In this document: in pieces, positions 1 to 33,800 of the stretch | Layout: each line of letters opens with the position of its first letter | Position numbering within the stretch: the first letter of the stretch is position 1 | Origin: Acidobacteriota bacterium | GTDB taxonomy: Bacteria; Acidobacteriota; Holophagae; Holophagales; Holophagaceae | Direction of reading: 5' to 3' | DNA length: 33,914 nucleotides | Assembly (NCBI GenBank): GCA_016213735.1 | Contig: JACQZU010000001.1 | Coordinates: 1-33,914, forward strand | Notes under the pieces: generated by a model | What the model was told of the DNA's origin: nothing | Database searches by the model: none | What the model saw: only the letters and a program-made list of their open reading frames with translations | Position numbers and translations under genes: made by a program

Positions 1-56
1 ACCAGCGCCCCGCCACGCGGGGCGTTTTTGTGGCGGAGCGTGAGGGATTCGAAATC
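1..56. repeat. 56-bp direct repeat, copy 1 (terminator plus inverted tRNA-Ser-like 3' end)
   Basis: Identical over all 56 bases to 234-289. It contains a GC-rich hairpin followed by five T (6-29) and then, at 31-53, the reverse complement of a tRNA 3' end: T-loop TTCGAAT, T-stem strand CCCTC, acceptor strand ACGCTCC, discriminator G and CCA. Discriminator G and this acceptor fit a serine tRNA. Copy 2 is directly preceded by a tRNA-like end, so position 1 may be the last A of a tRNA CCA end lying just outside the window; that is inference. Confidence 0.8.
6..29 (+). terminator. Rho-independent terminator (copy 1)
   Basis: Perfect 8-bp stem CGCCCCGC/GCGGGGCG with a 3-base loop, followed by TTTTT. 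It is oriented for transcription on the plus strand and probably ends a tRNA-like transcript entering from the left of the window. Confidence 0.75.
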
Positions 57-234
57 GGCCATGGCGCCCAGGTAGGGCCAGGGCGGCACGCACTGCGTGA
101 CGCCCGGCCCGCCGAGGGCGGAGGCCCGGGGGCAGCCAGTGCCGCGGCCTGGAGGCCCCGCTCAATATCGTCCCCGGCCACGCCGGGGACACTCCGGAGG
201 CCGGGTCCGGAAGGGAATCCCTCACGCTCCGCCA
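31..234 (+). other. Segment bounded by 20-bp perfect inverted repeats; candidate structured RNA or tRNA-derived element
   Basis: Bases 31-50 and 215-234 (GAATCCCTCACGCTCCGCCA) are perfect inverted repeats, and both are tRNA-Ser-like 3' ends. A plus-strand transcript would close on a 20-bp helix ending in GCCA and be followed at once by the terminator at 239-262. The core (57-214) holds further short palindromes, for example around 160-190 and 191-210, and no convincing open reading frame. It could be a non-coding RNA, a miniature inverted-repeat element, or debris of repeated integration at a tRNA gene. The sequence alone does not decide. Confidence 0.45.
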
Positions 235-289
235 CCAGCGCCCCGCCACGCGGGGCGTTTTTGTGGCGGAGCGTGAGGGATTCGAAATC
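234..289. repeat. 56-bp direct repeat, copy 2
   Basis: Exact copy of 1-56, offset by 233 bases. It directly follows the tRNA-like end at 215-234. It includes the second terminator and, at 264-286, an inverted tRNA-Ser-like 3' end. Confidence 0.8.
239..262 (+). terminator. Rho-independent terminator (copy 2)
   Basis: Same perfect 8-bp hairpin plus TTTTT as at 6-29, lying 5 bases after the tRNA-like CCA at 231-234. Confidence 0.75.
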
Positions 290-470
290 ACGGATGGCGC
301 GCAGGTAGCACCAGGTGAGGGCGCCCGGCGTCCGAACCGATCCCCGAAGGGGAGGTGCGTGCGCAGCCAGCCGTGGGGCCTGGAGGGTCCGCCGACCCTG
401 TCCCCGGCAAGCGGGGGGCACACCTCCGCCACGGCCCCGAGGGGGATTCCTCGTCTTCCCTTCGAGACAC
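290..470. repeat. Degenerate second copy of the ~233-bp tandem unit
   Basis: Aligns by eye with 57-233. Shared blocks are ATGGCGC-CAGGTAG near the left, a GCAGCCAG...GGCCTGGAGG block in the middle, and TCCCCGGC...GGGG-ACAC on the right. The right end (about 449-468) is a decayed form of the tRNA-like end. The remaining stretch to 497 holds nothing I recognise. No gene is supported anywhere in 1-497. Confidence 0.5.
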
Positions 471-31195: not shown

Positions 31196-32200
31196 TCAGC
31201 CCAGGAGGTCCAGGGGGCTCGCCACGCCCCGCCCGCCCCGGTTCAGCACGTGGGTGTAGATCATGGTGGTCTCCACGTCCTGGTGGCCCAGCAATTCCTG
31301 GATGGTGCGGATGTCGTGGCCCGCCTGGATCAGGTGGGTGGCGAAGCTGTGGCGCAGGACATGGGGGGTGACGGGCTTGGCCAGTCCGCCGGCGCGGGCG
31401 GCCAGGCGCACCGCCTTCTGCACGCTCTCGGGCAGCAGGTGGTGACGGCGCAGCTCGCCGCTGCGGGGGTCCTCCGAACGCTGGGCCGAGGGGAAGACCC
31501 ACTGCCAGCCCCAGGCCCGGGCCGCGTGGGGGGCCTTCACCGCCAGGGCGCCGGGCAGCCAGACCGCTCCGAAGCCCTCGTCCAGGTCCCGCCGGTGCAG
31601 GGCCCGCACCTCCGCCAGGTGGGCCTGGAGCGGTCCCCGCAGGCGTTCGGGCAGCACGGACACCCGGTCCTTGGCCCCCTTGCCCTCGCGCACGATGACC
31701 TCCCGGCGCTCGAAGTCCAGGTCCTTCACCCGCAGCCGCAGTCCCTCCAGCAGCCGCATGCCGGTGCCGTACAGCAGGCCCGCCACCAGCGCCATGACCC
31801 CCTGCAGCTGGCCCAGCAGCACGGACACCTCGCCGGGGGTGAGCACCACCGGCAGCCGGCGCGCGCCCTTGGCGCGGACCACCTCCTCCAGCCAGGGCAG
31901 GTCCAGGCCCAGGACGCTGCGGTAGAGGAAGAGGAGCGCGGCCTTGGCCTGGTTCTGGGTGGAGGCCGAGACCCTGCGCTCCACCGCCAGGTGGGTCAGG
32001 AAGGCGCCCACCTCGGGCCCCCCCAGTTCCCGCGGGTGGCGCCGGCCGTGGAACAGGATGAAGCGCCGGGCCCAGTCCGCGTAGGCCTCCTCCGTGCGCA
32101 GGCTGTAGTGGCGCAGCCGCAGCTCCTCCCGGAGCCGGTCCAGCAGCCGCGGTTCCCCTCCCGTCCGCCCTTCACCGGTCTGCCTCACAAGGTCGGCCAT
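31196..32200 (-). CDS. intI: Integron integrase (tyrosine recombinase)
   Basis: The 334-residue recombinase inserts and excises gene cassettes by attI x attC recombination. The core-binding N-terminal part (18-105; [17 protein letters not shown]) is XerC-like. The catalytic residues are all present: Arg149 (GTGMR), His280 and Arg283 ([12 protein letters not shown]), His306 (LGHQDV) and nucleophile Tyr315 (MIYTHV). Residues 232-264 ([21 protein letters not shown]) form the extra segment that marks integron integrases and binds the extrahelical bases of folded attC sites; XerC/D lack it. AAAGGGG precedes the ATG. It is transcribed away from the cassettes, with attI just upstream, the canonical layout. 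It appears intact, with host-like codon use, unlike the cassettes. Confidence 0.95.
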
Positions 32201-32225: not shown

Positions 32226-32444
32226 TCGCCTAATTCTTTAGGAAGCCACCGGACCTCCGGGGAACCATCCAGAACGGAATCAAAACATGTCGCTTTTTTT
32301 TCGCCTGTCAACCCCCCCTCGCCGTTCGCCTAATTCCCCCCGGACCCGAACCGGATTTCCCGGCGGATCCCTCCCCCCTCCCCCCGGCTTAGGCGTACTC
32401 GCCCCCACCCCGGGCCGTCGTCTAATTCAAAGTTAGGTGCCTTG
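32226..32444 (+). other. attI region of the integron
   Basis: Three direct copies of TCGCCTAATTC-like sequence lie at 32226-32236, 32326-32336 and 32418-32428 (the last TCGTCTAATTC), spaced 100 and 92 bases. An inverted copy TTAGGCG is at 32389-32395. The recombination core is 32417-32439 (GTCGTCTAATTCAAAGTTAG followed by GTG). It closely matches the layout of attI1 (CTAAAACAAAGTTAG): a left box, an AAAG spacer and the right box GTTAGGT. Cleavage is expected between G32432 and T32433. The other copies probably bind extra integrase. Confidence 0.8.
32282..32311 (-). promoter_or_regulatory. Putative integrase promoter (Pint)
   Basis: On the minus strand, a perfect TTGACA (32306-32311), an 18-base spacer containing eight A, then TGTTTT (32282-32287). 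The leader to the intI ATG would be about 75 bases. It lies between two integrase-binding repeats, suggesting autorepression (inference). Confidence 0.4.
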
Positions 32445-32906
32445 ATGAACTCTCAAAACCCCTCCAAGAAAATCCCGACGGCGTTCCTCACCCTGGCATT
32501 GAATTGTTGTGGTTTGATAAGTTATGACGATGATGGGGTTGCAAGTAATCAAATTTACATGTCCAGGCACGGTGACAAAGAAATTCACTTCGCTATCCCA
32601 GATAAGGACATCCCTAGTTATCCTTCTTGGCGTCCTGGCACTCCAATTCCTCTTTCGATTGACAAGGCGATCAGTATTGGATTGAAGGAGCTTCCAAAAT
32701 ATACAAAAAATTCTGATCATTGGGAATTCTATGGGGTGAGCCTAACTTACCTTCATACAACAGGATCCTCTCCAGATAAATGGCTCTATCAAATCCAATT
32801 CCACCAAAAAAGGGATTCAAACATCTTGGGAATCCCGATCACCCTCAATGGTGTCCCTATTCAGGGGACTGAGCACCCGCTAGATAAACGCCGGTGGTCC
32901 AACTAA
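32445..32906 (+). CDS. Integron cassette 1 protein, unknown, possibly exported
   Basis: 153 residues, no family recognised. An N-terminal hydrophobic run after KK (PTAFLTLALNCCGLIS, residues 11-26) looks like a short signal peptide or lipoprotein-like leader, although the lipobox is poor. The mature part has a WEFYGVSLTYLHTTGSS-type beta pattern and no catalytic motif I can name. Base composition and codon use are clearly AT-richer than the chromosomal genes, as expected for a captured cassette. The ATG starts 12 bases after the attI cleavage point; AGGTG from the recombined R box lies 5 bases upstream and may serve as SD. It is the cassette nearest attI, so probably the best expressed. Confidence 0.75.
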   Translation: MNSQNPSKKIPTAFLTLALNCCGLISYDDDGVASNQIYMSRHGDKEIHFAIPDKDIPSYPSWRPGTPIPLSIDKAISIGLKELPKYTKNSDHWEFYGVSLTYLHTTGSSPDKWLYQIQFHQKRDSNILGIPITLNGVPIQGTEHPLDKRRWSN

Positions 32907-32925
32907 GGGGAATTTATTTATCGGC

Positions 32926-33051
32926 ACCTAACCAGGCGTTCAACTCGGACCCAGCCGCAACTGTCTTCCAGGTTCCAATGTTCCTCTCGTCCTTCAAATC
33001 CCCAACCATCACCCGGCCTGCGGCTGGGCCGGTTAACTTGGTTCGTTAGGC
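32926..33051 (+). other. attC recombination site of cassette 1
   Basis: 126 bp. R'' is ACCTAAC (32926-32932), then GGCGTTCAACTCGG as the L'' region. A strong arm CCCAGCCGC (32950-32958) pairs with GCGGCTGGG (33020-33028), followed by the L' region GGTTAACTTGG and R' GTTAGGC (33045-33051). Cleavage is expected between G33045 and T33046, giving cassette 1 the span 32433-33045. The bottom strand should fold into the imperfect hairpin used by integron integrases. Confidence 0.92.
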
Positions 33052-33059
33052 CGCCAACA

Positions 33060-33536
33060 ATGGTCCTTGTGAAGTCCTGGAAGTTCATTTTTCTGTTTGG
33101 ATTCCTGATCATTGGTCAGTCGCTATTCGCGAATCCAATTATTGTGGAATCAAGACACGGTGGGCCTTCAGATTTAATTCTGTGGAAACAGGTGTTGATC
33201 GCGCTCATTGCCCTAATAATTGAATGCATTGCGCTTTTAGTCCTTCTTCGGTCAGCAACCAGTGTCAAAACCATTTCGGTCATCAAAGCCTTTCTTCTTG
33301 TTCATCTGATTTCGTATCCGGTTACCTTTCTACTGGTTAAACCCATCGGAATAGCGGCAGAGCTATTTCCTTTGGTCTTTGAGCCCTGGTTCTTAGCAAT
33401 AGTCTCAGGATTAGCCGTCCGAGAATCCTGGAAGGCCGTGGTTCGTTCAAATCTGTTGAGCTTTCTTCTCGGCCTAGCAATCCCTCATCTCTGGGTTCGG
33501 GCCTTTCCGTTCTGGGTTGGGGGGTTCAGTGCGTAG
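33060..33536 (+). CDS. Integron cassette 2 membrane protein, unknown
   Basis: The 158-residue protein begins with a signal or anchor segment (FIFLFGFLIIGQSLFA, about 9-24). Further hydrophobic helices follow near 44-64 (VLIALIALIIECIALLVLL), 78-95, 97-117 and 131-150. I recognise no family. AT-rich codon use again sets it apart from the host. The ATG is 14 bases after the cassette boundary; the only SD candidate is AGG in the R' box. Its 3' end overlaps a second small reading frame by 8 bases. It could be a small transporter-like or envelope protein; nothing more is supportable. Confidence 0.72.
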   Translation: MVLVKSWKFIFLFGFLIIGQSLFANPIIVESRHGGPSDLILWKQVLIALIALIIECIALLVLLRSATSVKTISVIKAFLLVHLISYPVTFLLVKPIGIAAELFPLVFEPWFLAIVSGLAVRESWKAVVRSNLLSFLLGLAIPHLWVRAFPFWVGGFSA

Positions 33537-33663
33537 CAAACTTCCTCAGGCTCTTCCATGGTTGCTGTTGGCTTTACTTGTGGGGGTTACCATTATCAAA
33601 TTCCATCTGCCCACTCAACCGCTCTACGCCCATACAGTCGTGCTAAATGCCAATCGTTTCTAG
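33529..33663 (+). CDS. Small membrane peptide gene, second gene of cassette 2
   Basis: 44 codons, GTG start, overlapping the upstream stop by 8 bases. The product has one clear transmembrane helix (LPWLLLALLVGVTIIKF, residues 9-25) with basic residues before it (RSK) and a polar tail ending NANRF. The TAG stop lies five bases before the attC2 R'' box, so the frame fills the cassette exactly. Overlap with the membrane-protein gene suggests coupled translation and possibly a shared membrane complex. No homolog is recognised. A short frame can occur by chance, but its position, hydrophobicity and fit argue for a real gene. Confidence 0.5.
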   Translation: MRSKLPQALPWLLLALLVGVTIIKFHLPTQPLYAHTVVLNANRF

Positions 33664-33668
33664 TGGCG

Positions 33669-33794
33669 CCCTAACCCTGCGCTCAACTCGGGCCCAGCCG
33701 CTACTGTCTTCCAATCTCCCATGAACTCTTCAGATTTCTCGTCCCCAACCACCGTCCGGCCTGCGGCTGGGCCGGTTAGCTTCAACCGTTAGGC
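33669..33794 (+). other. attC recombination site of cassette 2
   Basis: 126 bp, the same length as the first attC and similar along most of its length, including an identical 23-base run (33756-33778 against 33013-33035). R'' is CCCTAAC (33669-33675), the L'' region GCTCAACTCGG, stem CCCAGCCGC/GCGGCTGGG, and R' GTTAGGC (33788-33794). Cassette 2 spans 33046-33788. Confidence 0.92.
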
Positions 33795-33800
33795 TACCCA

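Follow-up and report, generated by a model that had tools for sequence, protein, structure and literature searches.

What is the repeated sequence at the very start of this contig, and how did it come to stand there? Mobile DNA often lands in tRNA genes, and the elements that target these genes usually, to our knowledge, keep to their own tRNA. The window analysed in the present study (33,914 nucleotides) is the entire contig C3, one of the 28 contigs of a draft genome of 3.59 Mb, and it opens with tandem units built in part from the 3' end of a tRNA-Ser. A preliminary description had two copies to work from, in which a wider family was not visible, and offered three readings: a closed-helix non-coding RNA, a tRNA-derived miniature element, or what is left of successive integrations at a tRNA-Ser gene.

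Results

The broken end of a tRNA-Ser array

The 56-base repeat reported at positions 1 and 234 is exact, and extends to 98 nt at 86% with a start-to-start distance of 233. The perfect inverted repeat, previously given as 20 bp (31-50 with 215-234), holds and is in fact 21 bp long (30-50 with 215-235; positions 215-237 read GAATCCCTCACGCTCCGCCACCA), and 215-235 is also perfectly inverted relative to 263-283, with a terminator between the two. Positions 30-238 fold far better than their shuffles (z = -8.6; 0 of 200 shuffles as good).

A search for tRNA genes within the window returned none because the window is the whole of contig C3, which starts inside the array. The tRNA-Ser gene anticipated to the left was found at the end of another contig, C8, where tRNA-Ser(gga) is followed by the terminator of the window and by the same variant inverted arm, GGCGGAGCGTGAGGG; therefore, C3 very probably belongs to the same array, and bases 1-470 are very probably, from this comparison, its broken end behind that gene. 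The C3 and C8 ends differ in letters (TTTTTTATTGG versus TTTTTGTGG), and both arms of the window carry one compensated A-T to C-G change relative to the tRNA-Ser(gga) of C8. The acceptor GGAGCGT, which had been predicted for the source gene, is absent from all four tRNA-Ser genes found, that at the C8 end having GGAGAGT. The 21-mer of the window recurs with few mismatches at several sites of the genome, many of which adjoin contig ends, probably because assemblies break in such arrays. The parts of the array are listed in Table 1.

Table 1. Parts of the repeat array at the start of the window.
Feature	Position	Strand	Basis
Last base (A76) of the upstream tRNA-Ser 3' end, remainder off the contig	1..1	+	Comparison with the C8 end
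Terminator copy 1, CCAGCGCCCCGCCACGCGGGGCGTTTTT	2..29	+	Same terminator after tRNA-Ser(gga) at the C8 end
Unit 1, inverted copy of tRNA-Ser 3' end (acceptor and T arm)	30..56	+	Sequence comparison
Unit 1, predicted folded body, three-way junction	57..143	+	Covariance model R1, 73.3 bits
Unit 1, spacer with extra hairpin	144..214	+	Compared with 13-nt spacers of other units
Direct copy of tRNA-Ser 3' end, G57 to A76	215..234	+	Sequence comparison
Terminator copy 2	235..262	+	Sequence comparison
Unit 2, inverted copy of tRNA-Ser 3' end	263..289	+	Sequence comparison
Unit 2, predicted folded body	290..374	+	Covariance model R1, 91.1 bits
Spacer and degenerate distal array end; GGGGGATTCCTCGTC resembles a decayed direct copy	375..462	+	Read from sequence; putative

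Apart from the array, the window contains a chromosomal integron, with an integron integrase at 31196-32200 on the minus strand (TIGR02249, 453.9 bits) and two attC-like sites recognized by reading at about 32923-33050 and 33670-33795 (array about 32919-33795). Its cassette ORFs, 32442-32906 and 33060-33536, are A+T-rich and have no Pfam or NCBIfam match, and contig C3 ends inside the integron array.

A repeat family of Holophagaceae

The array in the window is one instance of a far larger repeat family in Holophagaceae (Acidobacteriota). In a BLAST search with the unit as query, relatives turned up elsewhere in the genome behind Ser(gct, tga, cga), Leu, Gln, Glu and Asn genes and behind tmRNA. 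A script run over all tRNA loci detected, downstream of the genes, copies of the 3' end of the tRNA concerned in both inverted and direct orientation, and units also stand behind His, Ala and Met genes. The covariance model placed the body behind approximately 13 tRNA genes and tmRNA, with one weak match behind Pro(tgg); at Ser(cga), Gln(ttg) and Arg(acg), arms or a variant body were present. All model matches with context in this genome lie behind tRNA or tmRNA genes; the three on C3 and C7 start where their contigs do.

Across Holophagaceae, the body occurs behind more than 20 kinds of tRNA, SeC included, and behind tmRNA. The covariance model search detected it in 46 of 77 genomes and in eight of the 11 genera of the GTDB family, the other 31 genomes having none at the threshold used. 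Clean arrays are present in single-contig genomes, namely, three 171-bp units behind tRNA-Gln in G022 and three 196-bp units behind tRNA-Pro in G004. The linkage to tRNA genes is nearly absolute: among 96 loci, a tRNA or tmRNA gene lies upstream on the same strand at 73 (within 200 nt at 72), 18 are at contig ends, and five others lack an ARAGORN call, several of these having tRNA 3'-end sequence just upstream.

A DNA search of 60 relatives gave no match outside Holophagaceae. In a pattern scan of 84,980 species, the hosts were Geothrix and other Holophagaceae, and 14 loci fell under other names, none of which has a tRNA gene in the stretch examined. Thirteen of these score at most about 24 bits or have no score; the remaining match (67 bits) lies at a contig start (L289, 3-87) in a MAG labelled Bacillota, MH_R1_5, and may represent a mis-binned contig or a transfer.

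Variant bodies were noted at L030, L032, L035, L353, L370 and L371, in an extended form, GGCTGAC...GTCCTATT..., and in a CGCTGGCAGG...GTGCCAGCG form; model R1 misses them or scores them low, and copy counts are therefore minima. Spacer-like segments were also observed at other Geothrix loci (L382-L392), three of them at 197-bp spacing in G085 (e.g. G085:C1:2728200-2730000).

Anatomy and predicted fold of the unit

In the orientation of the tRNA, the order of parts is terminator, inverted tRNA 3' end (approximately 17-28 nt), body (approximately 85 nt), spacer (often 13 nt and GCGGCCCGGAGGG-like) and direct tRNA 3' end, with unit sizes of approximately 150-260 bp. Direct copies fall into two classes, one of which mostly starts exactly at base 57 (T-loop G57) and runs to CCA (Gln, Ser, Cys, Leu, Glu, Gly, SeC and one Asn locus), and another that starts within the T stem (Pro, Val, Met, His, Ala, Asp, Arg, Thr and another Asn locus). 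The direct copy continues through the terminator in approximately two-thirds of the loci that have one; in the others it is followed by an unrelated sequence, which is often another terminator.

The body is modelled as a three-way junction in which an internal loop, AGGTAG, is conserved; in some members the body is larger and includes an additional domain. Compensatory changes were found in 23 of 29 pairs among 21 sequences; among 116 distinct sequences aligned to the model, 28 of 29 pairs changed on both sides and 95.1% of cells were paired. The covariation score of the latter alignment was 0.598 against 0.152 when shuffled and at most 0.065 with partners slid, a large margin even though an alignment made in this manner leans toward the covariance model. 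A conserved fold is thus strongly supported by the modelled alignments.

G/U differences outnumber A/C differences, by 58 to 25 in the inner helices of the body and by 54 to 14 in the arms relative to the tRNA, in counts that include related sequences repeatedly; the excess is only suggestive of folding of the tRNA-sense strand, as RNA or as DNA. G/U pairs are rarer in bodies than in the tRNA stems of the same genomes (2.2% versus 6.5% of cells), and a folding-energy test of the two strands gave little difference beyond composition.

Arms fit the resident tRNA and bodies do not track it

The inverted arms are complementary to the resident tRNA at 1389 of 1518 positions, with a mean arm score of 17.3 for the own tRNA versus 9.0 for another. 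The own tRNA is strictly the best partner in 51 of 73 cases, and most of the others tie with, or narrowly lose to, an isoacceptor for the same amino acid. Where the direct copy and the tRNA differ, the inverted arm forms Watson-Crick pairs with the tRNA at 17 of 19 positions; the window provides the one compensated case among such differences. A single arm, that of a Pro unit with a Gln-like half, is clearly chimaera-like at the T-loop.

Bodies behind one and the same tRNA are similar within a genus (mean identity 0.85). Between genera, the nearest body lies behind the same tRNA in three of 73 cases, against 3.4 expected. Glu and Gln units of Geothrix have 85-89% of the body in common and unrelated arms, and a Val body (g3) and a Pro body (g5) are 88% identical with different arms. 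Since arms fit the resident tRNA and bodies do not track it, these comparisons, made at the level of sequence, show that bodies have moved between tRNA genes, with arms that follow, and would have been remade from, the target.

At tRNA-Gln in Geothrix, some genomes have no unit, and the gene is followed at once by sequence of the type found after the direct copy in other genomes; these sites are apparently empty, and could be precise excisions rather than the ancestral state. The copy number at tRNA-Cys also varies, many genomes having one unit and some a remnant only or none.

Discussion

We regard the units as non-coding mobile mini-repeats at the tRNA and tmRNA 3' ends of Holophagaceae, the body of which would be copied to new tRNAs by template switching, and assign to this reading a probability of roughly 0.5. 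In the mechanism that we infer, the body would be copied into another tRNA gene during replication: the new strand would fold back at the terminator hairpin, copy the tRNA end in reverse, switch to a donor body at the T-loop (TTCGAA, which is palindromic and nearly universal) and return near G57. The product would be tRNA, terminator, inverted end, body and direct end, with both arms remade according to the target and with boundaries in a stretch common to almost all tRNAs, and no dedicated enzyme would be needed. Retention of the fold may reflect a role in promoting copying or a function of the strand as RNA, and tandem copies would expand and contract through recombination between direct repeats. 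The unrelated sequence, rather than the same terminator, after approximately one-third of direct copies argues against the simplest fold-back, and the finding of just one clear T-loop chimaera argues against template switching. Whether these repeats amount to a new type of mobile element, which would inherit the folded body alone, have its ends rewritten from the target via the T-loop and enter almost all tRNA genes without harming them and without an enzyme of its own, is a more tentative matter, to which we give somewhat less than even odds.

The main competing explanation is a non-autonomous tRNA island, in which a tyrosine recombinase would integrate a folded single-stranded unit, the paired arms serving as the attachment site and the tRNA being restored. 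The genome of the window (97% complete) encodes four tyrosine recombinases, two Xer-like by reading, one phage-type by reading, and the integron integrase in the window, so that enzyme-driven movement would be possible. A regenerated tRNA with a displaced 3' fragment is the signature of such islands, the excess of G/T over A/C in arms and inner helices may indicate that one strand folds, T-loop crossovers are a known subsite of tRNA islands (PMC4383910), and in the CTX phage, att copies are inverted and the att site is a folded single strand (PMC4246890). An integrase nevertheless leaves unexplained how the restored end, the inverted arm and the direct arm all switch to the new tRNA; class I direct copies start at G57 without T54-C56, none of the units seen has an integrase gene, and attC boxes were not apparent on reading. 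We consider this explanation unlikely, and slightly more so a host-useful non-coding RNA or pre-tRNA trailer, which, with a tRNA-like acceptor and T helix and a CCA end, would be released by tRNA-processing enzymes and act on tRNA metabolism in the manner of RtT from the tyrT operon of E. coli; RtT RNAs are freed from tRNA operon transcripts (PMC4986893). Its strong, covarying structure, the G/U excess and the persistence at the same tRNA within a genus are consistent with an RNA; most units, however, sit behind a terminator and room for a promoter was not seen, presence is patchy, G/U pairs are scarcer than in tRNA stems, the plus strand folds hardly above the expectation from composition, and bodies change tRNA. 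An RNA function could accompany either template switching or an integrase.

The remaining explanations are far less probable. That the contig ends at this point, and that tRNA genes often serve as integration sites, might suggest scars left at tRNA-Ser by phages or plasmids that integrated repeatedly, or else a misassembled contig end; this reading is refuted by the existence of the family, as the same structure lies inside the single-contig genomes G004 and G022 and the same body behind unrelated tRNAs, and we give it very little weight. Phages, plasmids and viral contigs yielded no match, the viral scan being for the exact pattern only, and spread by such vehicles was rejected. Even less probable are REP-like palindromes moved by a RAYT (Y1) transposase: the repeats are short and palindromic with a conserved GGTAG, and REPs carry GTAG (PMC3733652), yet the genome of the window has many copies and no match to PF01797 (Y1 transposase), and the GTAG lies inside an internal loop of the body, not at an end. 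Reverse transcription, hinted at by the TGG with which some inverted arms begin, similar to a retroviral primer site, was discarded because this genome has no match to PF00078 (reverse transcriptase). As a separate observation, G014 (L393) and G022, two single-contig genomes of genus g5, have reverse-transcriptase genes, possibly group II introns, in seven identical copies and approximately ten copies, respectively.

The readings of the preliminary description were thus partly supported. The miniature element came close, as a miniature repeat family with tRNA-derived arms; the closed helix stands as a modelled structure backed by compensatory changes and covariation, less so as an RNA, with most units behind a terminator; and integration at tRNA-Ser was too narrow for an element with arms fitted to each of so many tRNAs. 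A repeat moving among more than 20 tRNA kinds with rewritten ends would solve the problem of target choice in a new way and offer a natural model of how bacteria copy by template switching; it would also help to explain the frequent contig ends beside tRNA genes in these draft genomes.

Comparison with known systems

No Rfam family reached its gathering score in the window; matches up to E = 1 were far below threshold, and none was RtT. Keyword searches of the literature found no description of such a family, which does not establish its absence from the literature, and as far as we found, no small repeats with arms that copy the resident tRNA are known. The tyrT repeats of E. coli are tandem units of approximately 178 bp behind a tRNA gene, each with a tRNA 3' end. 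They are the nearest arrangement known; the Holophagaceae units differ from tyrT/RtT by their inverted arms, conserved folded body and more than 20 tRNA kinds.

As in tyrosine-integrase islands, the resident tRNA is intact, a displaced 3' fragment lies at the far end, tmRNA is used and the boundary is in the T-loop; a regenerated tDNA and a displaced 3' fragment in direct orientation were both found. Unlike those islands, the units contain an inverted target copy, their arms change with the target, and they are geneless, being too short at approximately 0.15-0.26 kb to hold an integrase gene. Similar to CTX attP and integron attC, the units have two inverted arms that would pair within a single strand and enclose a branched hairpin, whereas the arms here are tRNA sequence and neither attC R boxes nor a dif-like core was apparent; in a comparison by eye only with the attC consensus RYYYAAC/GTTRRRY, GTTCGAA of the T-loop does not conform to GTTRRRY, and the boxes were not recognized. 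The units resemble REP/BIME and MITEs in being short, palindromic, intergenic, non-coding and limited to related hosts. Those elements own their ends, REPs with GTAG at the end of the palindrome and MITEs with terminal inverted repeats that belong to the element; the present units end in sequence of the target, the inverted arms following the resident tRNA and not the relatives of the body, and the genome of the window has no RAYT. Judged from these comparisons, the repeats appear to form a previously unlisted family outside Rfam, REP/RAYT and integrase-bearing tRNA islands as tested, with no attC boxes apparent on reading, and ends written by the target would, if proved, make this family categorically new.
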